Source: Lachnospiraceae bacterium (GTDB lineage: Bacteria > Bacillota > Clostridia > Lachnospirales > Lachnospiraceae). Taken from it: a stretch of DNA of 42,282 nt. Below the pieces are notes generated by a model. It ran no database searches and had not been told where the DNA came from. It worked only from the letters and a program-made list of their open reading frames with translations. The translations under genes were made by a program, and so were the position numbers. Below, piece after piece: positions 1 through 24,640 of this stretch. Location of the stretch: the NCBI GenBank assembly GCA_024691125.1, contig JAILNV010000037.1, positions 1 to 42,282 of the forward strand, in the 5' to 3' direction. Each line of letters begins with the position of its first letter. Position 1 is the stretch's first letter.

Positions 1-571
1 GTTTGATGAGAGCTACTGCGGGTATATAGACTGCAATACCCTTCGTGCCGGATATCCGGAGAGCAAGAGGTGCGGAGAGGCTCTGTGCCAGGCTTATATC
101 AGGGAAAGGGGACTGGATGCAGTTATAGCGCGTTTTACAAGAAGCTACGGTCCCACAGTACTTGATTCCGATACCAAGGCCATATCACAGTTTATAGGCA
201 GGGCGGTAATGGGCGGGGATATAATCCTGAAGAGTGAGGGAAACCAGTATTATTCCTATACCTATGCAGCTGATGCTGTTGCAGGACTTCTGACGGTTTT
301 GCTGGAGGGTGAGAAGGGTGAAGCATATAATATAGCCGATGAGAGATCGGATATAAGGCTTAAGGAGCTTGCCGTACTGATAGCGGATCATGTCGGAACC
401 AGTGTTAAATATGAGCTGCCGGATGAGGTGGAAAGAAGCGGATACAGCACAGCCACCAGGGCAAGGCTTGACGGAAGTAAGATAAAGCAGCTTGGATGGA
501 CTGCAAGATATGATATAAAGCAGGGTATAAACAGGACTCTTGATATATTGCAGAGCATTTCACATAAATAA
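1..571 (+). CDS. NAD-dependent sugar epimerase/dehydratase, 3' end only
   Basis: This is the C-terminal part (about 189 residues) of an extended short-chain dehydrogenase acting on nucleotide sugars; the reading frame is already open at base 2. The first codons carry YPESK, the Y-x-x-x-K catalytic pair of the family, followed by a segment ending in RSYGP, where these enzymes contact the substrate. The NAD-binding N-terminal Rossmann half lies outside the window. The C-terminus (AYNIADE, then a substrate-cap helix region) fits UDP-glucose 4-epimerase or UDP-glucuronate decarboxylase relatives, but the exact sugar cannot be read. It converges on the cytidylyltransferase with no bases between the stop codons. 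Its place beside a flippase and an oligosaccharyltransferase suggests it makes a sugar for the exported glycan. Confidence 0.85.
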   Translation, partial: FDESYCGYIDCNTLRAGYPESKRCGEALCQAYIRERGLDAVIARFTRSYGPTVLDSDTKAISQFIGRAVMGGDIILKSEGNQYYSYTYAADAVAGLLTVLLEGEKGEAYNIADERSDIRLKELAVLIADHVGTSVKYELPDEVERSGYSTATRARLDGSKIKQLGWTARYDIKQGINRTLDILQSISHK

Positions 572-1587: not shown

Positions 1588-3033
1588 ATGAAGGATGATA
1601 CGGTATCCGCCGCTTCCATGAAGCCGGATATTAAGAAGAATTACATATACAGACTGATCTATGAGATAGTGTACGCTGCATTGCCGGTTATAACACTGCC
1701 ATATATATCAAGGGTACTGGGTGCGGACGGAGTAGGCGAGTACAGTTATGCCTTCTCCATAATAACTTATTTCATGCTGATGGGTACGCTTGGAACGTCA
1801 AGCTATGGAACGAGGGAGATCGCGAGGAACAGAGATGATAAGAGGACCTGCTCAAAACTGTTCTGGGAAATAGAGCTGATGAGCGTTGCGGTATGTCTGG
1901 TCAGCCTTATCATGTGGGTGCTCCTGATACTGCTTGATGAAGGACACAGGCTGTTCTTTATCGCGCTTACGCCCTTTCTTTTGGGAACAATGTTTGACAT
2001 TACCTGGTTTTTTACAGGACTTGAGAGGATAAAAACCATTGTGTCAGCCAATGCAGCTGTAAGGATATCAGGTGTGGTGCTTTTATTCCTTATCGTACGT
2101 ACAAGGGAAGACGTTGTAGCCTATTGTGCCGTTAATTCCCTGACACAGCTGACCGCCAGCCTGTCGATGTGGATTTTCCTTCCGAAATATCTTGTCAGGT
2201 GCAGGGTGACATGGACTAATTTCAGTCATCATTTCCGTGAGACTGTTATATATTTTATTCCAACGATCGCACAGTCGATATATAACGTGCTTGACAAGAC
2301 TCTGATCGGAATCATTACAGGAAGCCCTTTTCAGAATGGATATTATGAACAGTCATCAAAGATAATATGGATAGCAAACGGAGTATCCTTTACGGTTTTT
2401 AATTCTGTGCTGTATCCAAGAATGTCCTACCTGTTTGCAACGATGGAACCCGGTGAGGTAAAGAAGAAGATATCACAGGCGGCGGATTATATCCTTTTTA
2501 TGTGCTTTGGAGCGGCCTTCGGGCTTCTTGGAATAACCCACACTCTGGTTCCGGTTGTTTTTGGCGACGGTTATGCTCCGGCTGAGCTGCTGATCTACAT
2601 GATGCTTCCGTTAATTCCGGTGATAGGGATCAGCAACTGTCTCGGGAACCAGTATTATACACCTGTCGGGAAAAGACTCCAGAGCAGCAGGTATATTGTG
2701 ACCGGAGCGGCTGTAAACCTTATATTGAATCTGTGTCTTATTCCTTTTTTTGAAGCCCGGGGAGCAGTGGTGGCATCCGTGGCTGCCGAATTACTGATAA
2801 CGTGGCTGTATATACGTAACTGTGACGGATATCTTACGCTTAAAATGGTCGGAGCATCTTCTGTTAAGAGGATCTTTGCCGGTGCATGTATGGCATTGAC
2901 AGTATATATGCTCGGGCACGTGCCGCTTAACGGCATCTGTGTACTGTTGCTGCAGCTGGCATCGGGAGCCGCTGTATATATTCTGATGCTGTATGCTTTG
3001 AAGGATGAAGTTTTGAAACGGAGACTGATATGA
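1588..3033 (+). CDS. Wzx-type lipid-linked oligosaccharide flippase
   Basis: A 481-residue polytopic membrane protein of the MOP/RfbX superfamily, which flips undecaprenyl-diphosphate-linked oligosaccharides across the cytoplasmic membrane. The N-terminus (IYRLIYEIVYAALPVITLPY, then ISRVLGADGVGEYSYAFS) and GTSSYGTREIARNR are typical of the Wzx branch. About 14 hydrophobic segments fill the length, which is normal for the family. Its stop overlaps the start of the oligosaccharyltransferase gene in ATGA, so the two are translationally coupled. This suggests the flippase supplies the glycan donor used by that enzyme. The ATG at 1588 is preceded by only a weak ribosome site; no better in-frame start is visible. 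Confidence 0.88.
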   Translation: MKDDTVSAASMKPDIKKNYIYRLIYEIVYAALPVITLPYISRVLGADGVGEYSYAFSIITYFMLMGTLGTSSYGTREIARNRDDKRTCSKLFWEIELMSVAVCLVSLIMWVLLILLDEGHRLFFIALTPFLLGTMFDITWFFTGLERIKTIVSANAAVRISGVVLLFLIVRTREDVVAYCAVNSLTQLTASLSMWIFLPKYLVRCRVTWTNFSHHFRETVIYFIPTIAQSIYNVLDKTLIGIITGSPFQNGYYEQSSKIIWIANGVSFTVFNSVLYPRMSYLFATMEPGEVKKKISQAADYILFMCFGAAFGLLGITHTLVPVVFGDGYAPAELLIYMMLPLIPVIGISNCLGNQYYTPVGKRLQSSRYIVTGAAVNLILNLCLIPFFEARGAVVASVAAELLITWLYIRNCDGYLTLKMVGASSVKRIFAGACMALTVYMLGHVPLNGICVLLLQLASGAAVYILMLYALKDEVLKRRLI

Positions 3034-5345
3034 AGACGGGAGAAAAAAGAGGCTTAAACAAGTTTATAATGGCAGTTCTTATCATTCTGATAATGATGAT
3101 GTCATTTGGCTTCAGATATCTGGTGAACCGGGAGGTGAATAACCGGCTGGGGGAGGCGTATATTGATCCTGAAAGCGGTGTGCCCTATCTTACCGAGATG
3201 GATTCGTATTATCACCTTCGGATGACAAGAGATATTGAAGTGTACGGACATGCCGGAGAGACCCTTAAGGACGGAGAGCAGTGGGATGCCCTGAGTTATG
3301 CGCCTTATGGAAGAAGTGCAGACAATTACCGCCCGCTCATGGCCTATATTGCAGTTTTTGCATACAGGATACTGTCAACACTCGGTTCGGTAACTCTGGA
3401 ACAGGTTGCCTACTGGCAGGGAGCGATAATATCGGCTCTGGTCGTTATTCCTGTGTTTATTCTTACCTACAGGATGCAGGGTATGATAGCTGCAGTTACG
3501 GCTTCGGTGCTTTCTGCCATTAATTACGGATATTTTGTACATACGGTACCCGGCTTCTTTGATACAGATATGGTAATCTCGTGGACTTCATGCTTCCTGT
3601 TCTGTTTTGGCTGTCTGCTGGTTTCATGTCTGGATAATGAAAACCCTGCAGGAACTGAGACTGTATCACACCGTCGTCTGAAAGTCGTGATATATGCTGT
3701 TCTCTTCGGACTGAGTCTGCTGCTCCTTATAGGTTCATGGTATATCTATTATATGTTTGCGGTAATCTTTGCCGGTGCCGTGGTGCTGCTGGTTATTCTC
3801 AGGGCTGTTTTGGCGGGAAAGGGCAGGAGAATGCCGGTTGTAAGGGGATCGGCACCTATGCTGGTTTTCTTTGCAGTGCTGTGCATTGCCGTATTTATTA
3901 CAAAGCCTGATATTATCAGCAACGCGATAGGAAATATCAAAGGGGTATTCTCTGAGGGGAAGGGCAGTATATTTCCGAATGCGCTTATTTCGGTATCTGA
4001 AATGCGCAAGCCCTCTCTGATCGCAGGGGGACTTAGCGGTCTGTTCCAGATGCGCGTACTGTCAGATACCAATATCGGCATAATCAATGCTGTGGGAGGC
4101 ATGATCCCGTGCCTTGCAGCACCGACCATGTGCGTAATGCTGATCATCCGCATTATAAAAAAAGATGTGAGATTCGAATATATACTTTTTATCATATGGT
4201 TCCTTATTACCGCGGTACTTGCAGTAAGGAGCTGGCGATTCATCATGCTGTTTGCAGTTCCGGTGGCAATACTTGCAGGCATGTTCGCCGGAAGCATATG
4301 CTCGCTCATGAGTGAGAAAAAAATGATGGACTGGAAGATATTCGCCGGGATGATCATTGCGCTTATGCTGTTTCCGACCATTTACGGGGCTTACCGTTCC
4401 TCGGCCGATTCAATGCCTTCGGTAAACAGGGGTATGCATGATACGCTGACATATATCAGGGACAATACGGACGAGGATACGATCCTGGCCGGATGGTGGG
4501 ATTACGGATATTTCTTTGAAGAAAAAGCGGTAAGACGCACGCTGTTTGACGGAGGCTCCCAGAACGGAGCCAGGATATACTGGGTTGCGAGGGCGTTTGC
4601 CACAAAGGATGAGACTCTGTCGGCCAATATATTCCGTATGATCGCGGGATCCGGTAATGATGCCGTGAACAGGATGCTGGAAGTGTTCGGAGAGGATAAG
4701 GAGACACTCGGGCTTATGGATGAGCTGCTTTCAGGAGACCGCGAGACAGCACTGACTAGGCTTAAGAGTGAAAATATAGGCAGTGAAGAAGCGGATGAGC
4801 TGGCGTCGCTGCTGTTTCCTGATGTAGAAGAGGATGTGCTGTGCATAATAACTGCGGAGATGCCGGGGGTTGCAGGGTGGTTTGCGAGATTCGGGTATCC
4901 CGATGAAGAAGACGGGTACAGTGATGACGCATACGCAGTGATAATGGATCATGAGGATTTCGTATCATATGACGGCAAGGCAGGCTGGCAGATAGCAAGG
5001 GATGACGGTAAGATCAACCTGATCATTGAGAACGAGGACGGGATGTACAACGCATATACTACACCTGAAGATTCGGAGGATGAGAAGACTCCGGTTGACA
5101 GACTGCTAATAGCGGAGAACGGTACCATGAGAGAGTACCGCTCCAATACAGAGCCGGATGAAAATACCCCGGGATTTGTTGTTTTTGTGCAGAACGATCT
5201 TGAGGTGCCCCAGGTGACCGTAATAACATCGCTTATGGCCGATTCCGTTTTTGGCAGGCTGTATTACCTGGGCGGTTCAGGCCTGGAGCGCTATACTTCG
5301 ATAGACAATGTACCCGGCAATGTGGCATTGTACAGGATAGAATAG
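3030..5345 (+). CDS. STT3/PglB/AglB-type oligosaccharyltransferase
   Basis: A 771-residue membrane enzyme expected to move a lipid-linked oligosaccharide to Asn in N-X-S/T on the outer face of the membrane. All hallmark elements are visible: an acidic motif after the first membrane segment (MDSYYHLR, D58), a second DxD-type motif (FFDTDM, D178/D180), SVSE in external loop 5 (S321-E324), and the signature WWDYG (W489-G493) that starts the soluble C-terminal domain. Roughly 13 hydrophobic segments precede WWDYG, and about 280 mostly hydrophilic residues follow. Length lies between Campylobacter PglB (about 713) and archaeal AglB. MDSYYHLR is more archaeal-like than Campylobacter-like. The DK/MI motif of the C-terminal domain could not be assigned. 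The gene is coupled by ATGA overlap to the flippase. Confidence 0.92.
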   Translation: MKTGEKRGLNKFIMAVLIILIMMMSFGFRYLVNREVNNRLGEAYIDPESGVPYLTEMDSYYHLRMTRDIEVYGHAGETLKDGEQWDALSYAPYGRSADNYRPLMAYIAVFAYRILSTLGSVTLEQVAYWQGAIISALVVIPVFILTYRMQGMIAAVTASVLSAINYGYFVHTVPGFFDTDMVISWTSCFLFCFGCLLVSCLDNENPAGTETVSHRRLKVVIYAVLFGLSLLLLIGSWYIYYMFAVIFAGAVVLLVILRAVLAGKGRRMPVVRGSAPMLVFFAVLCIAVFITKPDIISNAIGNIKGVFSEGKGSIFPNALISVSEMRKPSLIAGGLSGLFQMRVLSDTNIGIINAVGGMIPCLAAPTMCVMLIIRIIKKDVRFEYILFIIWFLITAVLAVRSWRFIMLFAVPVAILAGMFAGSICSLMSEKKMMDWKIFAGMIIALMLFPTIYGAYRSSADSMPSVNRGMHDTLTYIRDNTDEDTILAGWWDYGYFFEEKAVRRTLFDGGSQNGARIYWVARAFATKDETLSANIFRMIAGSGNDAVNRMLEVFGEDKETLGLMDELLSGDRETALTRLKSENIGSEEADELASLLFPDVEEDVLCIITAEMPGVAGWFARFGYPDEEDGYSDDAYAVIMDHEDFVSYDGKAGWQIARDDGKINLIIENEDGMYNAYTTPEDSEDEKTPVDRLLIAENGTMREYRSNTEPDENTPGFVVFVQNDLEVPQVTVITSLMADSVFGRLYYLGGSGLERYTSIDNVPGNVALYRIE

Positions 5346-5375
5346 GGCAGGCTTCTGCATTGGAAGCTTTAAAAA

Positions 5376-5491
5376 GTTATGATAACTTTATGGAGCCTCA
5401 TGTGGTTATGAAGAGTTTACAGTACAATGGGTAGTTATGAAGAGTTTGCGATATATGGATAAGTTATGAAGAGTTTACAGAGACTTGTTAA
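5376..5491 (+). repeat. Four tandem 29-bp direct repeats (iteron-like)
   Basis: Units start at 5376, 5405, 5434 and 5463, exactly 29 bases apart. The last three share a GTTATGAAGAGTTTRC core; the first is degenerate (GTTATGATAACTTTAT). The rest of each unit diverges. The array ends over the possible -35 box of the downstream ATPase gene, so an operator or iteron role is plausible. A four-unit array with a 16-base core and 13-base variable remainder is too short-spaced for CRISPR. Confidence 0.8.
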
Positions 5492-5513
5492 TGTGTTATC
5501 ATACAGATAGAGT
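5485..5513 (+). promoter_or_regulatory. Possible promoter of the AAA ATPase gene
   Basis: TTGTTA, a 17-base spacer and TAGAGT lie about 50 bases before the preferred ATG. The match is modest. The -35 hexamer sits within the last 29-bp repeat, which would suit autoregulation. Confidence 0.3.
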
Positions 5514-5563
5514 AATTGATAAATAAGGATACATCTCATCCCCTGCAGATACGGAGGACCGGA

Positions 5564-6604
5564 ATGCATACAGAGAACCCATTCACCATAACCTTCGGCA
5601 AACAGCCGAATAAGCTTATTTCAAGGTATGAAGATACCGATGAAATAGTCAGTACATTCAGTGCGGATAATGCCGTAAGCCAGACATTTCTTATTGAAGG
5701 CATCCGTGGCAGCGGTAAAACGGTGCTAATGACTACCGTGTCCAAAATTCTTGGTGAAAAAAAAGACTGGATAGTTATTAATCTGAATCCGACTATGGAT
5801 TTACTGGAGAGCTTTGCAGTAAGGCTCAATGATGCATGCAATTCCAAGCCTGAATTATTAAGCAAGGGATTCAATATTTCAGCAGCCGGTTTTGGCATAG
5901 GAGTGAATGGTGAGGAAAGAAGTACCGATTATGTCGGTATGATAGATAAGCTGTTCAGATCACTTATCAGAAAAGACCGAAAGGTTCTTATAACAATAGA
6001 TGAAGTGGTACACAACAGCAATATGAAGGTATTTGCCAGCCAGTTTCAGATTTTCATCAGGCAGGATTATCCTCTGTTTCTTATTATGACCGGTCTTCAT
6101 GAGAATATCTATGAAATCCAAAATGATCCTGCTCTCACTTTTCTCCTGAGGTCACCTAAGATAATAACGGGACCGCTCAGTATTCTTCAGATCACGAAAC
6201 AGTATAAAAATATTTTTGGAACGGATGAAATAAAGGCCCGTGAGCTGGCTTATCTTACCAGGGGATTTGCTTTCGCATTTCAGGCATTGGGTGTATCCTA
6301 TTGGAACAACAGAGAAGCAGGAATGGAGGCGGTTCTTGAGGAGTTTGATGAGCTGCTGGATGATTTTGTATATAAAAAAATATGGTCGTCGCTGACCACA
6401 CGTGAACGTGAAATAGTCAGGGCGATAAATACAGATGAGGTAAAGGCATCTGAAATATGTGTCCGTACCGGGATTAGTAACAGTTCTTGGTCTCAATACA
6501 GAGAAATGCTTGTGGATAAGGGAATTATAGAGACACCCCGATATGCTTACGTATCCTTGACACTGCCACGGTTTAATGAGGTGACTGCAAATTACAGGAT
6601 TTGA
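5564..6604 (+). CDS. AAA ATPase with C-terminal winged helix (Orc1/Cdc6-like archaeal ATPase family)
   Basis: A predicted cytoplasmic P-loop ATPase of about 346 residues. The ATG at 5564 is preferred over an upstream TTG at 5516, because GGAGG sits 6-7 bases before it and the family typically begins with a short NPFTxxFG segment, seen here as ENPFTITFGKQP. Walker A is GIRGSGKT (residues 46-53) and Walker B ends in DE (D146, E147). The C-terminus from about residue 280 (TTREREIVRAI, then ASEICVRTGIS) looks like a winged-helix DNA-binding domain. Function is unknown; relatives occur as lone genes in Bacillota and as mobile or regulatory ATPases. It separates the oligosaccharyltransferase from its candidate acceptor and has its own repeat-bearing upstream region. 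Confidence 0.82.
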   Translation: MHTENPFTITFGKQPNKLISRYEDTDEIVSTFSADNAVSQTFLIEGIRGSGKTVLMTTVSKILGEKKDWIVINLNPTMDLLESFAVRLNDACNSKPELLSKGFNISAAGFGIGVNGEERSTDYVGMIDKLFRSLIRKDRKVLITIDEVVHNSNMKVFASQFQIFIRQDYPLFLIMTGLHENIYEIQNDPALTFLLRSPKIITGPLSILQITKQYKNIFGTDEIKARELAYLTRGFAFAFQALGVSYWNNREAGMEAVLEEFDELLDDFVYKKIWSSLTTREREIVRAINTDEVKASEICVRTGISNSSWSQYREMLVDKGIIETPRYAYVSLTLPRFNEVTANYRI

Positions 6605-6662
6605 ATTTGCCTATATCTAATTACCGGATAAACACAAAAAACGACCGAATATACAAAAAAAG

Positions 6663-6691
6663 TTGTTGCATATGACAAGATATGTTATAAC
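6663..6691 (+). promoter_or_regulatory. Likely sigma-A promoter of the sequon-rich exported protein
   Basis: TTGTTG, a 17-base spacer and TATAAC lie about 90 bases upstream of the ATG. The -10 matches five of six consensus bases. The long leader that follows ends in a strong AAGGAGG site. Confidence 0.5.
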
Positions 6692-6782
6692 TATCTGCAT
6701 AGGCATAACTATGTGTATTTATGCGGTTTGGAAATTTTACGGATTAATTTGAATACATTTTGGCGATGAAGGAGGATGAGTT

Positions 6783-9700
6783 ATGTTAGGAAGACGGTTA
6801 CTTAAGAGGCTGACGCGTCTTGGACTTGCTACATATGCAATGACTTACTGCATGGCGTTTACCGTCTGCGCGTCCGAGAATCCGATAGCCGATCTTGCGG
6901 TTGCGGACACTGTTCAGGTTCTGGAAGTAGAGGCCGGAAGAGACAGTGGACTTAATTCAGATTTACTGTCGAAGGATTTAATAAAGGAATCTGAAGACGG
7001 TGAGATTATTGGAGCAGACGGCCTGTTGGAAGATGGGGCTGTTTCTGCCGGTGAGGAGCCGGATAAGCTTCAGGCAGAAGATCTGTTAGTGACACACGAA
7101 GGAGAAGAGGGTGAGGCTTTCTTCACTGAGACTCCCAAGCTGCCACCTGCAGTTGATGACGAAGGAGAGGCAGTTGATCCCGATTATGTTGAATTTAACT
7201 GCAGCGCACTTACGGTCACTGATTTGAATCAAAGTTATCCGTTCACAGTTTATAAGGGTCGCAAACCCATCGGGAATATTTCACAGATAAGCTTCGGACT
7301 GGCGGATAATAAGAATGGTACAGGTGCAAGTCCTTCATTCAGAGGTGCAAGTATCAGTGAATACGGTATCCTTAATTTCTCTTCAAGCACCGAATCCATG
7401 ACATTCTATGTGATCGCAGATGTCGAAGGAAGGATCGCATCATGTAAGGTCGTGGTATATGTTCCCATAGAAGAGATCGAATTCGAATGTGATACAGATT
7501 CCAGGCAAGAGCATGGCAAAAATATTAATATGACAGTTAATGAAACCGCCGAATGTAGACGGGCCAAGGCTTACATTATGCCGGTGGGACAGAGTTATAA
7601 CCTGTTAAATATCAGCAGAATTTCCTATGAATTACTGGAGAACGGAGAGCAGATCGATAAAAATCGCGGAATAAATATGACTGTTGATGAAAGGGGTCTT
7701 GCCCATATCGATTTCCTGAATCTTACACGTTCCGGACTTTTTGAAATAAGAGCAAAATACAATAATGCATATGTAGATGCTGAGGGTGTCAACCGTACGT
7801 ATGCAAATAATCCTGAAGCTGTCTGTAGGCTTAATATATCAGTCAAGGGAGATGTTCCCCTTGATGATTACGAAGCACATCTGTCAGATAAGTCTCTTAA
7901 GGTGCAGATGTATAAATCGAAGAATCCTCTTGCAGTTACGTTCCGAAATGCAAATACAGGTACAACGGCTGAAGTGGATGATTATGTAATAACCAATTGC
8001 AGCTTTACCAATAGTAAACTCAATGATTTTAGCAGTTACGGTTTGCTCAATCTGGGAGTCCTTGAAGACGGTAAGACCGTAAACATTAATGCATCAAAAT
8101 CATTTGTTGATGCCGGTTCGGTACCGAGCTTCATTAAGGAATTTAAGAAAGGCATATCAACAGGGCTTGAAGTCTCCGTTAAGGCAACGATTAACGGAAC
8201 CAGGGTTGAGGATACATTTACGACCAATGAGAATGTGACCATTACCTTCGGTGATACAAAACCTACGGCAAAGGATATCAAGGCAGTGGGAACTCTTGAG
8301 TTCAATTCCTATGAAGCAGGTCGGGAAGGACACGGAATAACGTTCCAGGGACCTGAGGTGGGAAGGATTATGACTCCCCCTACAAAAAAGGACAAAGAAG
8401 CGTATTTTAAGGCCGGTCTGGACGCAGATTCAGATGCGATTGCTTTCAACAGTACTTCTTCAATGCCGGCAAAGGGAAACGGTAAGCTGAATGTGCTTGT
8501 ATTCCTGAATGACACGGAATACAATCTTCCTTCCAATTATAATATTTCTGTTCCGGTAAGCTATAAGATAACGAATGGCGCGCCTGTACTGACGCTTGAT
8601 CAGTCATCGGCACTGCTGAATTGCGCACCATCGGATTATCTTCTGGTAAGCTTTGGCATTAAAGGAATGACCGGTGATACATTGGTTATGTGTGATGTTA
8701 AGGATTCCAAGGGTCATGCAATAAACGGAACGGCTCCGATCACCGCATCTGCATTTTTGTCCGGTACATCGGGGTATGTTTATCTGGGCGCCAACGATGG
8801 CATTGAATACGGAACGTCATATAAGGTGGAAATATATCCTCAAAACGATGTCAGCGGCAGGAAGGGTGTAAAAAAGGTAATCACTGTCAAAACACCGGCT
8901 GAGAAGGCAGTACAGAGCTTTACGACCAAGCAGAAGGGAACGATAGATGCAGGCATACCCATGTCGGCTGTTTACCTTACTCTTAGCGGCAAGAATGTAA
9001 ATCTGCTTCTGAAAACACCGGTTAATGTTACAACGACCTTAAAGAACGGTGAAGATATATCGGATCTGCTGACTTATTATGTTTTTCCCGATGAAAAGCT
9101 TAATCCTGTCTTTATACTGTATGAGAAGTCACCATTCCTCCTTCTTGAAAAGGGACTGGGAGGACAGCAATATGTAACGAAGATCGCATATAATATCAGC
9201 GGTAATACTATAACAACAGAATATAAGGGCAAGATAAGCAATTCGGTGGTTACACCCAAGCTGGAAGAGTCCAGGATAAGCATTAATCCTGATGCCAATT
9301 TCAATCAGACTATCAGGATCCCGGTTACCAATCTTCCCGGTGGGGAATATAAATATGATATAAAAAATAATTCGCCGTTCGGTATCAATGTCACATCTGA
9401 GCTTGCCAGGGATTATGTTGAAATATCCACAGATACGATATCCGATTCGGCATACGGAAAGACATTTGAAATTGCGATCACTCCCAAAGTTCCGGAAAAG
9501 TACAATGCAAACTTAAGTGCCAAGGCGGCAACGCTTAAGATAGCTGTACTCAATCCTAAAAAGAATGCCGCAGCTATGTCTGCAAAGGTGAAAGGAGGCA
9601 TCGATGCCGTAAGGGATGATACTAATGCAACGGCTGTGATATCATTTAAGAACATATATGACCCGGAGAGCATGATCGAGGATATAGTATGTGAGGATAT

Positions 9701-10250
9701 CGTTCTGAAGGGGAAGGGCAAGAGTACACCTTTACCGTGTTATGAGAATTTCAATTGTACAATAGATGGAAATAAGGTCATATTTACACGTATGCCGGGT
9801 AAGAATATCCAGGCAGGGACTTATGTGGCCACGTTAGCAGCAGTTTTAAATAATGGCAGACGTGTGACGGGCACCGTAGAATTCAAGGTTGTCCGGGGCA
9901 AGACCAATACGGTAGTCAAACCTTCACCGGCTGTCCTTATAAACCGTGACAATGCAAGATATACAACGGTTTACATCAGCCCTAAAAAGAACGATGCCAA
10001 TGCCATTATAAATGCAACGATCGTAGCAGATAAGAATAAGTTCGACGAGTATTTCAGCCTCGAGCAGATTAAAGATAAGCCGGGCACATACAGGCTGAGA
10101 GTACAGAAGGGATATTACGAGAAGCAGGTTAAAAAGAGCATTGTTTCCCTGATAACCAAGGTAGTAAGCAAGAGCGTTAAGGTTAATGTGTACTATAATG
10201 GAAGTACCGAGTATGAAACGGTTACGGTGAAGGTTAAGATCAAACCGTAA
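6783..10250 (+). CDS. Exported 1155-residue sequon-rich protein, candidate N-glycoprotein
   Basis: The ATG follows AAGGAGG by seven bases. The N-terminus is a signal peptide: basic residues, a hydrophobic core and likely cleavage after VCA near residue 30. Residues 31-138 form an acidic linker with only two Asn. From residue 139 to 1139 I count 30 N-X-S/T sequons (X not Pro); 30 of about 84 Asn are in sequons, and 23 of the 30 are preceded by Ile, Leu, Val, Phe or Tyr. The body is Ser/Thr/Val-rich and beta-like, consistent with tandem Ig-like modules, but I recognise no named domain. There is no LPXTG motif or C-terminal membrane span, so it is probably secreted or wall-associated. The oligosaccharyltransferase two genes upstream makes it the obvious candidate acceptor. 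It is a single-gene unit closed by a strong terminator. Confidence 0.85.
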   Translation: MLGRRLLKRLTRLGLATYAMTYCMAFTVCASENPIADLAVADTVQVLEVEAGRDSGLNSDLLSKDLIKESEDGEIIGADGLLEDGAVSAGEEPDKLQAEDLLVTHEGEEGEAFFTETPKLPPAVDDEGEAVDPDYVEFNCSALTVTDLNQSYPFTVYKGRKPIGNISQISFGLADNKNGTGASPSFRGASISEYGILNFSSSTESMTFYVIADVEGRIASCKVVVYVPIEEIEFECDTDSRQEHGKNINMTVNETAECRRAKAYIMPVGQSYNLLNISRISYELLENGEQIDKNRGINMTVDERGLAHIDFLNLTRSGLFEIRAKYNNAYVDAEGVNRTYANNPEAVCRLNISVKGDVPLDDYEAHLSDKSLKVQMYKSKNPLAVTFRNANTGTTAEVDDYVITNCSFTNSKLNDFSSYGLLNLGVLEDGKTVNINASKSFVDAGSVPSFIKEFKKGISTGLEVSVKATINGTRVEDTFTTNENVTITFGDTKPTAKDIKAVGTLEFNSYEAGREGHGITFQGPEVGRIMTPPTKKDKEAYFKAGLDADSDAIAFNSTSSMPAKGNGKLNVLVFLNDTEYNLPSNYNISVPVSYKITNGAPVLTLDQSSALLNCAPSDYLLVSFGIKGMTGDTLVMCDVKDSKGHAINGTAPITASAFLSGTSGYVYLGANDGIEYGTSYKVEIYPQNDVSGRKGVKKVITVKTPAEKAVQSFTTKQKGTIDAGIPMSAVYLTLSGKNVNLLLKTPVNVTTTLKNGEDISDLLTYYVFPDEKLNPVFILYEKSPFLLLEKGLGGQQYVTKIAYNISGNTITTEYKGKISNSVVTPKLEESRISINPDANFNQTIRIPVTNLPGGEYKYDIKNNSPFGINVTSELARDYVEISTDTISDSAYGKTFEIAITPKVPEKYNANLSAKAATLKIAVLNPKKNAAAMSAKVKGGIDAVRDDTNATAVISFKNIYDPESMIEDIVCEDIVLKGKGKSTPLPCYENFNCTIDGNKVIFTRMPGKNIQAGTYVATLAAVLNNGRRVTGTVEFKVVRGKTNTVVKPSPAVLINRDNARYTTVYISPKKNDANAIINATIVADKNKFDEYFSLEQIKDKPGTYRLRVQKGYYEKQVKKSIVSLITKVVSKSVKVNVYYNGSTEYETVTVKVKIKP

Positions 10251-10283
10251 AGGACAGGCTAAAAAAGGAATATTGAGCTAATG

Positions 10284-10316
10284 ATCGGGACGGTTAAGAC
10301 CGTCCCGATTTTTTTT
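10284..10316 (+). terminator. Intrinsic terminator after the sequon-rich protein
   Basis: A perfect 11-bp stem (ATCGGGACGGT with ACCGTCCCGAT) with loop TAAG is followed by a run of eight T. It ends the 6783-10250 transcript cleanly. Confidence 0.95.
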
Positions 10317-10550
10317 GAAAAAATTTAAATTTATCCATAAAAACCATAAACTTCCCACGTATCTATATCAGAGTTAAGAAAATGAGGAATCCGGAAATCC
10401 TGAAATTAAAGCAAATGAACAGCTAATCTGAAGAAACAGTAAACGGAAAGTAAGGCTGGAAGAAAGTGAAACACGAAGAAAGCGGATGGCGTGGAATGTT
10501 AAAGGCGTAAGTAAACAAAATGTAAGGATATGAAAGGGAGGACGTGTATT

Positions 10551-12575
10551 ATGAAGAGGAGAAGGATCACAGGTTTATTAACAGCAATGACAGTATTATC
10601 AATGTGTGTAACAGGCTGCGGCGGGGCTGCAACTGCTAATGCACCGGCAGCGACTAAGGAAGCTGCACCGGCCGAGGCTGAATACACTGAAACAGCTCCG
10701 GCAACGGAGAGCTATGATGATATGTATGATGATGAGTGGGCAGAGGCGGCAGCAGAGGAATACGGCTACGATGAGGAGTATGAGACTGTGGATACGGAAG
10801 CAGTCGAATACACATATGACGGTGCATCGGAAGAGGCTTATATAAACACTCCCGGCGCAATGCTGCAGGCAGAGGCAGCTTCCTATGACAGCAGTGCAGA
10901 GTATGATGAGACCACGCAGGCAGAAGCTTACTATGATGAAGCATACGGAGATGAGAACGGAGAAGAGACTGTTTCATGGGACAGGGACGAAGACAGAAAG
11001 AGTGCGGGTTCTGAAGAGACATACCGTGAAAGCAGAAAAGATAAGAGTGGGAAGAAAGCGAAAGCAGCAGGAAGAGATGACTATCTTGGGCAGATATATG
11101 ATTACAGCTGTTTCCCGGCAGGATTTAACACTGAAGAATATTCAAAGCTTGAGGAGCAGGGGTACAGATCAGTACTTAACAGACCGCTCTCGACCTTTGC
11201 GGCAGATGTTGATACTGCAAGCTACAGTAACCTTCGCAGGATGCTTAATGACGGATATTCGGTATATGATCTACCAAGCGGAAGCGTAAGAGTAGAGGAG
11301 CTGCTTAACTATTTCAATTACGACTATGCGGGTCCCAAGGGAAGTGATCCCTTCGGCGTGAACTTTGAGATGTCTGAATGTCCGTGGAATGAAGACGCGA
11401 AGCTTATGAGCATCGGACTTAAGACAGAGGATATCGATTTCGAAGAGACACCTGCTTCCAACCTGGTATTTCTTATCGATGTTTCGGGATCGATGTCTGA
11501 TCCGGATAAGCTGCCTCTGCTTCAGGAAGCCTTCTGTATGCTGGCTGACCAGCTTACTGATAAAGACAGGGTAAGCATCGTTACCTACGCAAGCGGAGTT
11601 AAGACTGTGCTTAAAGGCGCAAAGGGAAATGAAAGCCGCAGGATCAAGGAAGCCATTAATGATCTGCGTGCTTCGGGCGGAACCAACGGAGGCAAGGGAA
11701 TCGAGCTGGCTTACGAACTGGCTGAGAAGAATTTCATTAAGGGCGGCAACAACCGTGTGCTCCTTGCTACGGACGGAGATCTTAATCTTGGAATAACCTC
11801 TGTAGGAGGTCTTGAACAGCTTATTACAGAGAAGAAGGAATCGGGTGTATTCCTTTCGGTGCTTGGTTTCGGAACAGGGAATATCAAGGATAACAGGATG
11901 GAAACACTTGCTGACAAGGGTAACGGCAATTACTCATATATCGATTCGGTGAAGGAGGCAAAGAAGGTTCTGGTTGATGAGCTTTCATCCAATATGCTGA
12001 CTGTCTGCAAGGACGTTAAGCTTCAGGTGGAATTCAACCCCGCAGTTGTTAAGGGATACCGTCTTGTAGGTTATGCGAACAGGACAATGAAGGCTAAGGA
12101 TTTCAATGATGATAAGAAGGACGGCGGCGAGATAGGCGCAGGACATGAGGTTACGGCACTGTATGAGCTGATCCTGACAGAAGATATGGATGCATTGGAT
12201 GATGATGCGGCTGATGTCAGTGAGCTCCGCTACGCAGATGAGTTCAGAAAAGCCGGGAAGTCATCAAAGAAGAACGGATCCGGCATGAGCTATACAGGCA
12301 ACGAGGAGATAATGACACTGAGCGTTCGTTATAAGAAGCCGTCGGAGAATAAGAGCAATCTCCTTACATATCCTGTAACCTTTAAATACTATGAGGCTTC
12401 TCCGTCGGATAACTTTATCTTCCAGAGTGCTGTTGCGGAATTCGGACTTATCGCATCACACAGCGAATATCAGGGGAATGCGGATCTTGACCGTGTGGCC
12501 GACGAGCTTGAATCCATCAGACTGAACGATGAGTACAAGAGGGAGTTCAGGGATATGGTTGAGGAAGCGTACTGA
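10551..12575 (+). CDS. VWA-domain lipoprotein (YfbK-like)
   Basis: An exported lipoprotein of 674 residues. The ATG at 10551 is chosen over one at 10530 because GGGAGG lies nine bases before it. The N-terminus is a lipoprotein signal ending in the lipobox VTGC. Residues of about 25-180 are a low-complexity stretch rich in Tyr, Asp, Glu and Ala. A YfbK-type N-terminal region follows (STFAADVDTASYSNLRR), then a von Willebrand A domain with MIDAS motif DVSGSMS (D310 onward), GGTNGG and ATDGDLNLG, then the C-terminal region usual in this family. It probably binds metal-dependent ligands at the cell surface. The following sigma/anti-sigma pair shares its odd composition, so the three likely form one signalling or envelope-stress unit. 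Confidence 0.87.
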   Translation: MKRRRITGLLTAMTVLSMCVTGCGGAATANAPAATKEAAPAEAEYTETAPATESYDDMYDDEWAEAAAEEYGYDEEYETVDTEAVEYTYDGASEEAYINTPGAMLQAEAASYDSSAEYDETTQAEAYYDEAYGDENGEETVSWDRDEDRKSAGSEETYRESRKDKSGKKAKAAGRDDYLGQIYDYSCFPAGFNTEEYSKLEEQGYRSVLNRPLSTFAADVDTASYSNLRRMLNDGYSVYDLPSGSVRVEELLNYFNYDYAGPKGSDPFGVNFEMSECPWNEDAKLMSIGLKTEDIDFEETPASNLVFLIDVSGSMSDPDKLPLLQEAFCMLADQLTDKDRVSIVTYASGVKTVLKGAKGNESRRIKEAINDLRASGGTNGGKGIELAYELAEKNFIKGGNNRVLLATDGDLNLGITSVGGLEQLITEKKESGVFLSVLGFGTGNIKDNRMETLADKGNGNYSYIDSVKEAKKVLVDELSSNMLTVCKDVKLQVEFNPAVVKGYRLVGYANRTMKAKDFNDDKKDGGEIGAGHEVTALYELILTEDMDALDDDAADVSELRYADEFRKAGKSSKKNGSGMSYTGNEEIMTLSVRYKKPSENKSNLLTYPVTFKYYEASPSDNFIFQSAVAEFGLIASHSEYQGNADLDRVADELESIRLNDEYKREFRDMVEEAY

Positions 12576-18839: not shown

Positions 18840-19811
18840 ATGAGCAGGAAAAGAAGAGATTACAAGTCAACATTTTACAGCAGAATAGAGAACTTCGTTA
18901 ACGGAAAAGAGCAGTTCCTTATATACAGGGAATCAAAGAAAACGGATGTCGAGAAGTTTGAGTCGCTCGAAGAGGAACTGACAGAGGCGGCAGACCTTCT
19001 TGAAATGAGGGAAGAGCTGCAGTGGATGAGAGATCATACGGAGCCCCTTGATTTCCTTAAGAGATTCCACAGGCTTTACGGCGTTATAGCGGTACTTGTG
19101 TGCTTTACCATGATGGTGCTGCTGCTTGTTACCGTATCGTGGCTTCCCAGGTTCGGAAATGCAGACAACCCCGCCAATAACGAGGTTATTAAGAGATATA
19201 TCGAGAAGGGTGAGGAAGAAACGGGTGCCGTGAACATAGTCACCGGCCTTATCCTTAACTATCGTGGCTTCGATACCATGGGCGAGACCCATGTACTGTT
19301 TATTGCAGCCAGCTGCGTTATGATCCTGCTTCTTATTGCCGAGGGTGAGGAGAAGAGGGCAGGCTACGCCTTTGACAGGTATCTTGAACCCAAGAACGAT
19401 ATCATTATCCAGAAGGTGGCGGCTTTTCTGGTTCCCATGGTTTTCGTTCTCGGGATATACGTCATACTTAACGGTCATCTGTCGCCCGGCGGAGGCTTCT
19501 CTGGAGGCGCCATCATAGGAGCCGGACTTATCATGTATGTATCTGCATACGGCTTTCACAAGACGGAGCGTTTCTTCAATGAGCATGTATATAAAGTCGC
19601 CAAGGTAAGTGCGCTGTGCTTCTATGTGTGCTGCTTAAGCTACTATTTCTATATGGGAGCGCATGGATATGATAACCATATTTCGCTGGGTACGCCCGGG
19701 AATATCATAAGCAGCGGTCTTATACTGTTTATCAATATTTTTGTCGGGACCGAAGTGGCATGTACCATGTATGCCTTTTACGCCCTGTTCAGAAAGGGGG
19801 GACTCGAATGA
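18840..19811 (+). CDS. MbhE-MnhB fusion antiporter subunit
   Basis: A 323-residue protein joining two antiporter subunits. Residues 1-80 are a charged cytosolic extension. Residues 85-180 hold two spans around AVNIVTGLILNYRGFDTMGE, the MbhE type (end of MrpA). Residues 185-320 are the MnhB domain, with LNGHLSPGGGFSGGAIIGAG. In archaea these are separate genes (mbhE, mbhF). About 100 bases before it have no gene, and its ribosome site is weak. The stop overlaps the next start as ATGA. Confidence 0.88.
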   Translation: MSRKRRDYKSTFYSRIENFVNGKEQFLIYRESKKTDVEKFESLEEELTEAADLLEMREELQWMRDHTEPLDFLKRFHRLYGVIAVLVCFTMMVLLLVTVSWLPRFGNADNPANNEVIKRYIEKGEEETGAVNIVTGLILNYRGFDTMGETHVLFIAASCVMILLLIAEGEEKRAGYAFDRYLEPKNDIIIQKVAAFLVPMVFVLGIYVILNGHLSPGGGFSGGAIIGAGLIMYVSAYGFHKTERFFNEHVYKVAKVSALCFYVCCLSYYFYMGAHGYDNHISLGTPGNIISSGLILFINIFVGTEVACTMYAFYALFRKGGLE

Positions 19812-20317
19812 TAGGCCCCAATCTTTTCTACAACGTGTTTTCGGTGGCGGCGGTGATACTTTTCTCGGTCGGATTCACAACGCTTATGCTCCACCGCAAT
19901 ATGATCAAGAAGATAATCGGTTTCAATATAATGGATACCGCCGTATATCTCTTCCTTGCGAGCAAGGGATATATTTACGGAAGGAAGGCTCCGATCATCG
20001 TTAACGATGTTAAGAGCACGGAAGCCTACATCAATCCCATTCCGGCAGGCCTCGTGCTTACGGGTATAGTTGTGTCCGTGTCTGTTACGGCGCTCATGCT
20101 GGCCATAACGATAAGGCTGTATGAACGTTATCACAGTCTGGATATTGATGAAATATCATTGAAGGCAAGGATGGATGCTCCGGGAAGAAACAAATACAGG
20201 AAGAAGGAGCCCAATCGAAGCGATAACAAAGAAATGGCGGCAGGAAAGGGAGATGCTAAGGGGAAGGACGCTGCTAATAAGGGCAGAGATACGGTAAATA
20301 TGGAGGGCAGGAAATGA
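19808..20317 (+). CDS. mnhC: Mrp-type antiporter subunit C (NuoK-like)
   Basis: A NuoK/MnhC-family subunit of 169 residues. The ATG at 19808 is chosen over 19760, because a GGGGGGA site precedes it and it overlaps the preceding stop. Three spans and the core IIGFNIMDTAVYLFLASKGY, then PAGLVLTGIVVSVSVTALML, define the family. The last 60 residues are a Lys/Asp/Gly-rich tail unusual for MnhC, which commonly ends near residue 115. Confidence 0.92.
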   Translation: MIGPNLFYNVFSVAAVILFSVGFTTLMLHRNMIKKIIGFNIMDTAVYLFLASKGYIYGRKAPIIVNDVKSTEAYINPIPAGLVLTGIVVSVSVTALMLAITIRLYERYHSLDIDEISLKARMDAPGRNKYRKKEPNRSDNKEMAAGKGDAKGKDAANKGRDTVNMEGRK

Positions 20318-21807
20318 GCTGGATTGAAAACTGTGTCCCTCTGTCGATAATCATATGTCTTATGGGTGGCATCATAAGTTCGGCGATAAAGGGTGAGGCG
20401 GCCAGAAAGCTTACAGTGGCGCTGATAACCGTAGTGGCTGCGATGAATGCGCTGATACTTGGCTATACTGTCCGGCTGGGACATGAATTCGTATATGTTA
20501 TGGGTAAGTTCCCTGCACCATGGGGTAATGAGCTTCGCGCCGGGTGTCTTGAGGGGCTTATGGGACTGTTCTTTGCCGTTATTATGCTGCTATCGGTCAT
20601 AGGTGGTATAAGAGGACAGAATGATGATATTAAGCCGAGCCGTATGAACCTTTATTTCATCATGATCAACCTTATGATGAGCTCACTGATGGCTCTGGTA
20701 TATACCAACGACCTGTTCACGGCCTATGTATTCGTGGAAATAAATACAATGGCTGCCTGTGCCCTTATCATGATAAGGGATAACGGCCATACGATCGTGG
20801 CTGCGACCAAATACATGATAATGAGTCTGCTTGGTTCAGGTCTTCTGCTTATAGGAATAAGCATGCTGTATTCGATAACGGGACAGCTTCTTATGCCCAA
20901 TATTAAGGAAGCGGTCGACAGGCTGGCGGCATCGGGAGATTATGCGATACCGCTTACGGTCATCATAGGTCTTCTGAGCGTTGCGCTTGCCATCAAGAGC
21001 GCTCTTTATCCATTCCACAGCTGGCTGCCCGAGGCTTACGGTTTCTCGACGGCATCATCGGCTGCGATACTTTCATCGCTGGTGAGCAAGGGCTATATCT
21101 TCTTACTTATAAAGATATTCTACCGGGTTATCGGAATCCAGGTAATGGTGGGACATAAGATAACCAATATCCTGTTTATCTTCGGAATAATCGGTATGAT
21201 CATGGGTTCGGTGACTGCCATAAGACAGACCGATGCGAGACACCTGATCGCATATTCCTCGATAGCGCAGATAGGATATATTTACATGGGCATCGGTCTT
21301 GGGAGCACGGCGGGAATGATCGCCGCAGTATTCCATATTCTGTCACACGGAGCTACGAAATCGATGCTGTTTATCGCACAGAGAGGGCTCGTGGAGGTAT
21401 CTAACGGAAGCAAGAACTTCACCGATCTTAAGGGTTCGGGGCTGCGCAATAAGCTTTCGGGAGTGGCTTTTGCCGTGGGTGCATTTTCGATGGTCGGTAT
21501 TCCGCTGCTGGCAGGCTTTACTTCGAAGGTTTATTTTGCCAAGGCTGCGATAACGGCTGTTGATGCGAAGATGTGGATCGCCATGATCACGCTGGCTATT
21601 TCAACGATACTTAATGCAGTCTATTTCATCCGTGCAACAATATCGGTATATACCCCGAGAAACATGAATTACGCAGATCCTAATTACAGACCGAGCAAAA
21701 TGACCAATGTGGCGCTCGTCTGTTTTATAGCGCTTAATTTCTTTCTCGGAGTTCTTTCTTATCCCATATATCATACGATAGAGCTGGGACTTAAGATATT
21801 TGGTTAG
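20314..21807 (+). CDS. mnhD: Mrp-type antiporter subunit D (proton-translocating)
   Basis: A 497-residue proton-conducting subunit of the NuoL/M/N family. The conserved membrane Glu (E142 in YVFVEINTMA) and Lys (K228 in LAIKSALYPFHSWLPEAYGF) of the ion path are both present. About 14 spans and normal length. ATGA overlap with mnhC. It sits where MrpD or MbhH normally ends the operon, but here three further paralogues follow. Confidence 0.92.
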   Translation: MSWIENCVPLSIIICLMGGIISSAIKGEAARKLTVALITVVAAMNALILGYTVRLGHEFVYVMGKFPAPWGNELRAGCLEGLMGLFFAVIMLLSVIGGIRGQNDDIKPSRMNLYFIMINLMMSSLMALVYTNDLFTAYVFVEINTMAACALIMIRDNGHTIVAATKYMIMSLLGSGLLLIGISMLYSITGQLLMPNIKEAVDRLAASGDYAIPLTVIIGLLSVALAIKSALYPFHSWLPEAYGFSTASSAAILSSLVSKGYIFLLIKIFYRVIGIQVMVGHKITNILFIFGIIGMIMGSVTAIRQTDARHLIAYSSIAQIGYIYMGIGLGSTAGMIAAVFHILSHGATKSMLFIAQRGLVEVSNGSKNFTDLKGSGLRNKLSGVAFAVGAFSMVGIPLLAGFTSKVYFAKAAITAVDAKMWIAMITLAISTILNAVYFIRATISVYTPRNMNYADPNYRPSKMTNVALVCFIALNFFLGVLSYPIYHTIELGLKIFG

Positions 21808-21818
21808 GGGATTGTTAA

Positions 21819-23114
21819 ATGTACCTTTTAAAGGACGTATCCATTTATTTCAGACCGGACACGCTGGGACTTATGTTCCTGATACTGACCGTTACCATGT
21901 GGATAATGGATCTCATCTATTCAATTGAATATATGAAAGGTGAAAAGCACAGGAAGAGGTTCTATCTGTTCTATGTGCTGACCCTTATGAGCATGTGTGG
22001 TATCTGTCTGGCAGGTAACCTCATAACCATGTATATGTGCTATGAGCTGATGGCTGTGGTAACTCTGCCCCTTGTACTGCATGAACAGACAGCGGATGCG
22101 ATAGCTGCAGGCAAGAAATATATCTTCTATTCTGTAGGCGGCGCATTTCTGGGTCTCGTGGGATTCTTCTTCATGTACATATACGGCGATACGCTTACGT
22201 TTACGCCCGGCGGAGTCCTTAATATGGCAAGGCTTGCAGGACATGAGGATGCGATGAGAGTGGTGACACTGCTTGTGATAATCGGCTTTGGCTCCAAGGC
22301 AGGCATGTTCCCGCTCCATGGATGGCTTCCTACCGCTCATCCGGTAGCACCGTCTCCGGCATCGGCTTTTCTGTCGGGAAATATAACGAAGATGGGCGTG
22401 TTCGTGATAATAAGATATGTTTATTATCTTGTGGGCGCTGACTTCATAAAGGGCACATGGGTACAGTACACCTTCCTCGGGCTTACCATCCTTACGATCG
22501 TGATGGGATCCATGATGGCTTATAAGGAGCAGGTGTTTAAGAAGAGGCTTGCTTATTCCACAGTCAGTCAGGTAAGCTACGCGCTGTTCGGTATCGCGCT
22601 GTTTAACAGGATCGGGCTTATCGGCGGACTGCTGCATGTGATCTTCCATTCATTTGCGAAGAATACGCTGTTCGAGGTAGCCGGAGCCGTGATCCATGAA
22701 ACCGGGAAGAAGAAGGCGGAGGATTATAAGGACATGGCAAGATACATGCCAATAACCATGGGCTGCTACACCCTTGTTTCACTTACGCTTGTGGGTATTC
22801 CTCCGACAAGCGCTTTCCTGAGTAAGTGGTATCTTGCGACGGGATCTTTGGAGACTGAACTTAGCGTGATCTCGTGGCTCGGTCCTGTGGCGCTTATAGT
22901 AAGCGCACTGCTTACGGCGGGATATCTTTTGAGTATTACGCTTAAGGCGTTCTTCCCCGGAGATGAGTATGATTACCCCTGTCTTGAGAAGAAGGAACCG
23001 GGGAAATATATGCTGATACCGATGCTTATAATGTCGATCATGTCGGTCCTGATGGGTATATGGGCAGAGCCTGTTATGCGGGTTGCGAAGCTGATCGCAG
23101 GGAGTATTTTATAA
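21819..23114 (+). CDS. NuoM/MnhD-like antiporter subunit, N-terminally short
   Basis: A second NuoL/M-type subunit of 431 residues. Key residues are kept: E76 (MYMCYELMAVVTLPLV) and K160 (GFGSKAGMFPLHGWLPTAHP). The Glu lies about 60 residues closer to the N-terminus than in the neighbours (E142, E136, E135), so the first two membrane helices are missing. The upstream gap is only 11 bases, so no lost start can restore them. An AGGGGA site precedes the ATG. Confidence 0.88.
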   Translation: MYLLKDVSIYFRPDTLGLMFLILTVTMWIMDLIYSIEYMKGEKHRKRFYLFYVLTLMSMCGICLAGNLITMYMCYELMAVVTLPLVLHEQTADAIAAGKKYIFYSVGGAFLGLVGFFFMYIYGDTLTFTPGGVLNMARLAGHEDAMRVVTLLVIIGFGSKAGMFPLHGWLPTAHPVAPSPASAFLSGNITKMGVFVIIRYVYYLVGADFIKGTWVQYTFLGLTILTIVMGSMMAYKEQVFKKRLAYSTVSQVSYALFGIALFNRIGLIGGLLHVIFHSFAKNTLFEVAGAVIHETGKKKAEDYKDMARYMPITMGCYTLVSLTLVGIPPTSAFLSKWYLATGSLETELSVISWLGPVALIVSALLTAGYLLSITLKAFFPGDEYDYPCLEKKEPGKYMLIPMLIMSIMSVLMGIWAEPVMRVAKLIAGSIL

Positions 23115-24578: not shown

Positions 24579-24640
24579 GATGCAGCGGTGTCTGAATAGT
24601 TACCGGAATATTAAGATATAAAACGTAACGGAGAGAGTAT

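Follow-up and report, generated by a model that had tools for sequence, protein, structure and literature searches.

A candidate dedicated N-linked protein glycosylation locus in a Lachnospiraceae bacterium

Gene content of the locus and its STT3-type enzyme

The window analysed here (42,282 bases; JAILNV010000037.1) is the entire contig C286 of a 3.5-Mb, 300-contig draft genome of a Lachnospiraceae bacterium, and close to its start lies a candidate N-linked protein glycosylation system, comprising a flippase, an STT3-type oligosaccharyltransferase (OST) and a putative acceptor protein rich in N-X-S/T sequons. All the genes that an earlier sequence-only reading had placed here are present at the positions it gave. 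On the plus strand, a polysaccharide-type flippase gene (1588–3033; PF01943 Polysacc_synt, 104.9 bits), encoding a candidate exporter of a lipid-linked glycan, runs into the gene for a 771-residue STT3-type OST (3030–5345; PF02516, 134.2 bits; PF21436, 36.7 bits), and the proposed ATGA overlap between the two was confirmed at 3030–3033. The acceptor candidate, a protein of 1155 residues whose body is beta-rich according to the secondary structure of a low-confidence model, is encoded downstream on the same strand (6783–10250). Its gene starts with a segment for a conserved signal-peptide-like block, KRLTRxGLxxYxxxYCMAFTVCAE (6783–6902, plus strand), which is common to acceptors with unrelated bodies, and is followed by a terminator-like hairpin of 12 pairs and a T run (10283–10310, plus strand), a consensus match only. 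Between the STT3 and acceptor genes lies a gene for an ATPase-like protein (5516–6604, plus strand), whose AAA-type matches are all below the Pfam cut-offs.

The STT3 product passes the cut-offs of both Pfam models, the STT3 domain (PF02516) and the STT3-PglB core (PF21436), and falls in the STT3/PglB/AglB family, which we take to be GT66. Residues D58, D178, T179, D180, E324, R403, W489, W490, D491, G493 and Y494 are invariant in 50 aligned sequences (window included) and presumably represent the catalytic set of PglB, AglB and STT3, that is, the EL1 Asp, the DxD motif, the EL5 Glu, the pre-core Arg and WWDxG. The AlphaFold (AF2) model of the enzyme has a pLDDT of 88.5 and a pTM of 0.87, and its top 21 matches in the Protein Data Bank (PDB) are all PglB, STT3 or AglB chains (best 5ogl, E 4.6e-21, TM 0.63/0.68), two translocon chains among the matches being identified as STT3A; the next class is the C-mannosyltransferase DPY19 (E 2.5e-8). 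The best NCBIfam match is an archaeal STT3 model, at 79 bits and below its cut-off of 450. Judged by family, predicted fold and catalytic residues, the 3030–5345 product is a genuine STT3/PglB/AglB oligosaccharyltransferase.

The enzyme resembles Campylobacter PglB as a single-subunit STT3-fold transferase, with PglB as the best PDB match, and its profile aligns to residues 86–711 of the 724-residue PglB chain 3rce (131 bits) with the DTD and WWDYG motifs paired. It differs from PglB in two other places, as compared by eye rather than structurally. Window residues 321–337 read SVSEMRKPSLIAGGLSG, where SVSE is as in human STT3A and PglB has TIME; these motifs were matched by eye because the profile alignment leaves them unpaired. 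In addition, the Arg that follows the motif Glu of PglB by 12 residues is a Ser in the window (E324+12), on what we take to be the residue numbering of the PglB TIxE motif and of this Arg. As a separate observation, the last ~150 STT3 residues are identical in the window and the related locus L005 while the remainder differs, and L003 and L004, which encode a second type of the enzyme (type B), are near-identical from WWDMG to the end and divergent before it; in both pairs the shared end suggests recombination or gene conversion.

Sequon grammar of the acceptor candidates

About 30 sequons had been ascribed to the 6783–10250 product, and we indeed counted 30 with X not Pro, against 12.3 expected. 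None of 100,000 shuffles reached this number; the motif in reverse, S/T-X-N, is present in 9 copies. The sites comprise 17 N-X-T and 13 N-X-S, N-P-S/T is absent, the first 138 residues are sequon-free, and pairing of Asn with Ser or Thr at the +2 spacing is enriched 2.35-fold. The runner-up among the other open reading frames of the window (31 scored) reached a z of 3.2, with 7 sequons against 2.2 expected. The description of the acceptor as secreted rests on a reading by eye of a charged start, a hydrophobic stretch and a VCA-like end, together with a modelled helix at residues 2–28, but a crude export filter did not flag the protein; on its sequence and model, it is probably secreted. The model as a whole is poor (pLDDT 59, pTM 0.35), and no PMP or Big Pfam match was found in the protein. 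Whole-protein homologues occur in 6 of 49 genomes, five of them with STT3; the sixth, G028 (59% complete), has no STT3 match, and its homologue, at a contig edge, carries 22 sequons against 12.5 expected (z 3.0).

Relatives of the locus were collected by a pattern scan of 84,980 named genomes, which yielded 122 stretches encoding relatives of the enzyme, of which the 80 best, from 78 loci, were retained. The counts use the 79 STT3 loci left once L002–L004 had been removed as duplicates. Among 960 other genes of these loci, 16 encode proteins with z ≥ 5, which are spread over 15 loci and three STT3 clades, two of the 16 being near-copies (L022 and L070). The near-copies were left out of the set used for spacing analysis, leaving 14 acceptor candidates, and were retained in the counts of block proteins and of loci with z ≥ 5. 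In this set, selected by z ≥ 5, Asn followed by Ser or Thr at +2 occurs 451 times against 167.6 expected (2.69-fold), whereas eleven other spacings reach only 0.72–1.15-fold. Thr at +2 is favoured (322 against 90 expected) over Ser (129, with 77 expected), the X position avoids Pro (3 against 16.1), and Asp plus Glu at −2 amount to 39 of 448 against 60.5 expected. From these patterns, the excess in the acceptor set is the sequon grammar of N-oligosaccharyltransferases without an acidic −2 preference. The set conforms to the sequon rule of these enzymes, with its strict exclusion of Pro, as given in the available part of PMC8342417.

Signal-peptide-like block, host range and neighbouring genes

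The acceptors are tied together by their N termini rather than their bodies. Within the STT3 clade of the window, eleven acceptors have a 40-residue signal-peptide-like block in common (mean column identity 71%), and six of these match the window acceptor at just 16–19% over the full alignment. Within the genus, STT3 was found above cut-off in 9 of 37 genomes (own included), as opposed to 0 of the 43 others among 80 relatives; six of the nine encode the window's type A and three type B, at 24–25% identity. A block search returned 6 of the 37 genus genomes, exactly the six with type-A STT3, and 0 of the 31 others, of which G003 and the 31 negatives alone are independent because the block model was built from five of the six type-A genomes. 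Outside the genus, one weak match (E 0.007) was obtained among 24 other genomes. The block was also present in 10 of 12 STT3-positive genomes from elsewhere, some of which contributed rows to the model, at 14 places; copies were counted with a profile, as a typed pattern had missed several.

Five of the 14 places lie on a different contig from the fetched STT3 locus. Three full-length proteins among them carry 42, 27 and 10 sequons where 12.4, 10.2 and 3.5 are expected, and two fragments carry 1 and 5 where 0.2 and 3.4 are expected. The 42-sequon protein, whose start is 352 bases away from one end of its contig, could still adjoin STT3; the 27-sequon protein lies well inside its contig. When proteins were selected by the block, enrichment at +2 was 2.46-fold in 17 STT3-locus proteins, 14 of which exceed z 3, and 2.97-fold in the three full-length off-contig proteins. 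The C-terminal ends of the acceptors differ, with L038 ending in a LysM domain and L030 in a VPQTG-plus-hydrophobic tail. We also note that G053, which belongs to another family and gave no STT3 match, has both a weak block match (L231) and the most sequon-rich of the control proteins considered below (L275/L283, z 4.3), a pairing that may be due to chance.

The hosts are mostly Clostridia. Of the 78 loci retained, 41 have ruminant or rumen-type labels (22 ruminant or its gut, and 19 RUG, presumably rumen uncultured genomes). Probable isolates, with labels lacking MAG, include Lachnospiraceae MC2017 and AD3010, Ruminococcaceae YRB3002 and two [Clostridium] aminophilum; in MC2017 (L028), STT3 shares a contig with a protein of 54 sequons. 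A small number of loci are in Atopobiaceae, Saccharibacteria, Mycoplasmatota, delta-proteobacterial groups and archaea; the relatives L066, L075, L081 and L080 come from MAGs labelled Saccharibacteria, Atopobiaceae and Tenericutes/Mycoplasmatota. In a phylum sample at E ≤ 0.001, matches occurred in 12 of 398 genomes, only the own genome being strong and the rest scoring 19–25.5 bits, one just over the cut-off. Among 72,556 plasmid records, a single STT3 match was found (27% identity across 22% of the query). A quick tree of 72 rows (L036, L044, L045, L084, L090, L096 and L099 excluded; L036, L044 and L045 assigned to clade A from identity, not from the tree) placed the window STT3 within a clade of 23 clostridial rows and did not settle archaeal parentage. 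According to the part of PMC4973528 available, bacterial STT3 homologues, few in the data set of that study, nest in euryarchaeal sequences and are attributed to at least two transfers from archaea. Two other features of the family stood out. G483 and G485 are MAGs with two and three STT3 matches, respectively. A separate STT3 group (L052, L057, L060, L063, L064, L065 and L090, one labelled Pseudobutyrivibrio) adjoins a RecJ gene, and neither a c3/c7 flippase nor a z ≥ 5 protein was found near it.

Genes of donor type accompany the enzyme in related loci. Within six genes of STT3 in the 79 loci, there are a GT2 (27), another GT2 (20), the window's flippase cluster (16), DUF2304 (16), GT4 (12) and LicD (10); the GT2 protein of 27 loci resembles dolichol-phosphate-mannose synthase. 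The nearest relative, L022, has the gene order GT2, GT2, DUF2304, LicD, flippase, STT3, ATPase-like, acceptor; therefore, donor-type genes are present where the contig is longer. The ATPase-like cluster (c37) occurs in 2 of 79 loci, the window and L022, and another cluster (c16), similar by eye to ABC ATPases, is close to STT3 in 5 of the 79, the window contig being cut upstream. Since the window is a whole contig, the region upstream of its STT3 locus is not readable in the own genome. Of the genes that the sequence-only reading suggested seeking upstream, glycosyltransferases were found in the loci of relatives; a phosphoglycosyltransferase was not found on the window contig.

The upstream sugar-nucleotide genes of that reading are present. 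An NAD-dependent epimerase/dehydratase gene (2–571, plus strand; Pfam Epimerase, 68.5 bits) is truncated, its 5′ part being cut by the contig start, and an IspD-family cytidylyltransferase gene (572–1291; PF01128, 141.5 bits) is on the minus strand. The latter product matches the NCBIfam IspD and ribitol-5-phosphate cytidylyltransferase models, both below cut-off. The own genome has three IspD-like matches, this one included, the top-scoring one lying elsewhere; the window cytidylyltransferase is perhaps of the sugar- or polyol-phosphate type rather than the housekeeping IspD. Beyond the acceptor's terminator-like hairpin, the window encodes a YfbK-like VWA protein whose start looks, by eye, like that of a lipoprotein (10530–12575) and, at 18840–26800, an Mrp/Mbh-like cation antiporter cluster with an MnhB/MbhE protein and four Proton_antipo_M proteins.

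A proposed dedicated system weighed against its alternatives

We consider it very likely that the locus is a dedicated N-linked protein glycosylation system of transferase and acceptor. The evidence read from the sequence comprises enzyme identity, predicted fold, catalytic residues, gene overlap, the sequon grammar of the acceptors and the way in which enzyme and acceptor go together within the genus; together with the glycosyltransferases of relatives, it upholds the N-glycosylation reading originally put forward. A dedicated rather than a proteome-wide system is favoured because the sequon excess is limited to particular proteins and because these share the acceptor block. In such a system, glycosyltransferases acting in the cytoplasm would assemble a polyprenyl-linked glycan, the flippase (1588–3033) would turn this carrier-linked glycan outward, and the STT3 enzyme (3030–5345) would move it en bloc to the Asn of N-X-T/S, with X not Pro and without need of an acidic −2 residue. 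One or a few acceptors would be exported by the general Sec route behind the characteristic signal peptide.

Several findings weigh against this interpretation. No protein with z ≥ 5 was seen in 64 of the 79 STT3 loci, namely in 17 of 26 loci of the window's clade, 8 of 11 of clade B, 1 of 4 of clade C and all 38 others, several loci of the window's clade being cut by contig ends. Three block proteins have z below 3 (L037, 0.1, and L032, 2.8, both shorter than 200 residues; L039, 1.6), and no signal block was found in the [Clostridium] aminophilum or AD3010 genomes despite their window-clade STT3. PF02397 phosphoglycosyltransferases are absent from the window contig, all five matches of the own genome being elsewhere. 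As a marker of the STT3 system, PF02397 proved uninformative, since it was found in 11 of 11 genomes tested, nine with STT3 and both of those without. Furthermore, sequon sites are no better conserved than other Asn: between the window and L024 acceptors (34% identity), 5 of 29 aligned sequons are kept against 15 of 53 other Asn. The sequon number itself is steady, at 27–30 in four full-length members of the window acceptor's group (window included); with number steady and positions shifting, density rather than position is expected to matter. For the same reason, the system likely serves to coat a surface protein densely with sugar, as a shield or an adhesin. Going further, we tentatively propose, as a possibility held at somewhat under even chances, a new mode of N-glycosylation in Gram-positive gut bacteria, in which every STT3 would have a few clients of its own, marked by the conserved signal block. 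This block would route the nascent client to the transferase, and the clients would have evolved to be saturated with freely moving sequons.

The alternative that survives best, and which overlaps with a dedicated system, is general N-glycosylation as in Campylobacter, with many exported clients of which the neighbour is merely the densest; we regard it as rather unlikely. STT3 enzymes recognise a short sequon, and a general system would explain the 38 loci outside the three clades that have STT3 and no z ≥ 5 protein; chance sequons could be used even without enrichment. However, in a six-genome sample (1.54 Mb in total, 0.16–0.4 Mb each; four STT3-positive, two negative), none of 1257 proteins, exported or not, reached z 5 (maximum 3.7). 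Minimum protein length was 200 residues here and 150 in the STT3-locus scan, a difference that affects L034 alone. Sequons of exported proteins were at 0.91–1.27-fold in the positives and 0.94 and 1.34 in the negatives, figures that are approximate because the export filter is crude and misses the window acceptor. This excess, 0.91–1.34-fold regardless of STT3, is small and also counts against the N-glycosylation interpretation preferred here; genome-wide sequon enrichment is rejected for the sampled parts, where positives resemble negatives.

It is very unlikely that the STT3-like enzyme instead glycosylates a teichoic acid or other wall polymer, or Ser/Thr, beside a coincidentally sequon-rich neighbour. 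GT-C enzymes have other uses, and the LicD, epimerase and IspD-type genes of these loci are also found in wall-polymer clusters. Such an activity would not account for an enrichment exactly at +2 with Thr over Ser and Pro avoided, for its recurrence across three STT3 clades whose loci encode different acceptors, or for the failure of same-domain proteins elsewhere to reach it. It is hardly credible that beta-repeat domains (PMP, Big) generate the excess as a by-product of their structure: PMP repeats do place N and T close together and controls from relatives are slightly above 1 at +2 (PMP-repeat proteins 1.21-fold, two of them from the type-B STT3 genomes G022 and G036; Big_3_5 proteins 1.24-fold), but none of 33 control stretches, some from one protein, reached z 5 (top L275/L283 of G053, z 4.3), the window acceptor is enriched without a PMP or Big match, and sequon positions turn over while their number stays. 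This by-product explanation was rejected on the two domain controls.

A dedicated system of this kind would stand apart from those described. Whereas the acidic −2 rule applies to CjPglB, according to the part of PMC4894442 available, the acceptors here show no such preference, and the window locus would differ from Campylobacter pgl, with its ABC-type flippase, by the adjacent Polysacc_synt flippase and by a dedicated acceptor. The same source describes bacterial OSTs outside Campylobacter, a class that would also take in the window enzyme.

We take the genus of those OSTs to be Desulfovibrio; to our knowledge, characterised bacterial N-glycosylation by STT3 enzymes is confined to Campylobacter and its kin and to Desulfovibrio. 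Archaeal AglB uses a relaxed N-X-S/T sequon on surface-protein acceptors, features that the candidate window system would share, but the hosts of the latter are mostly Clostridia. Serine-rich repeat adhesins, which have an accessory Sec system, dedicated O-glycosylation and a special signal peptide, offer another likeness, in that a surface protein with a special signal peptide is co-encoded with its own glycosylation enzymes, but the enzyme class here is N-linked. Accessory-Sec export of the acceptors found no support, as no second full SecA was found in 8 of 9 STT3-positive draft genomes (further matches below 27 bits); G483 has two. No account of N-glycosylation in Lachnospiraceae or rumen Clostridia was found among the papers listed by searches of open-access literature, with subscription papers and preprints outside the scope; by term search of their available parts, PMC11164674 nowhere mentions Firmicutes, Bacillota or clostridia, and PMC6118326 lacks the word glycosylation.

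Taken together, Gram-positive rumen bacteria, of which one or more would seem to be isolates, combine an STT3 enzyme with genes that are likely to supply the donor, as seen in relatives, and with an acceptor on which selection seems to have acted. If true, the proposed system would widen the known range of the STT3 N-glycosylation reaction, would supply relaxed-sequon transferases for glycoprotein work, and would illustrate the possible paired evolution of a transferase with its clients.

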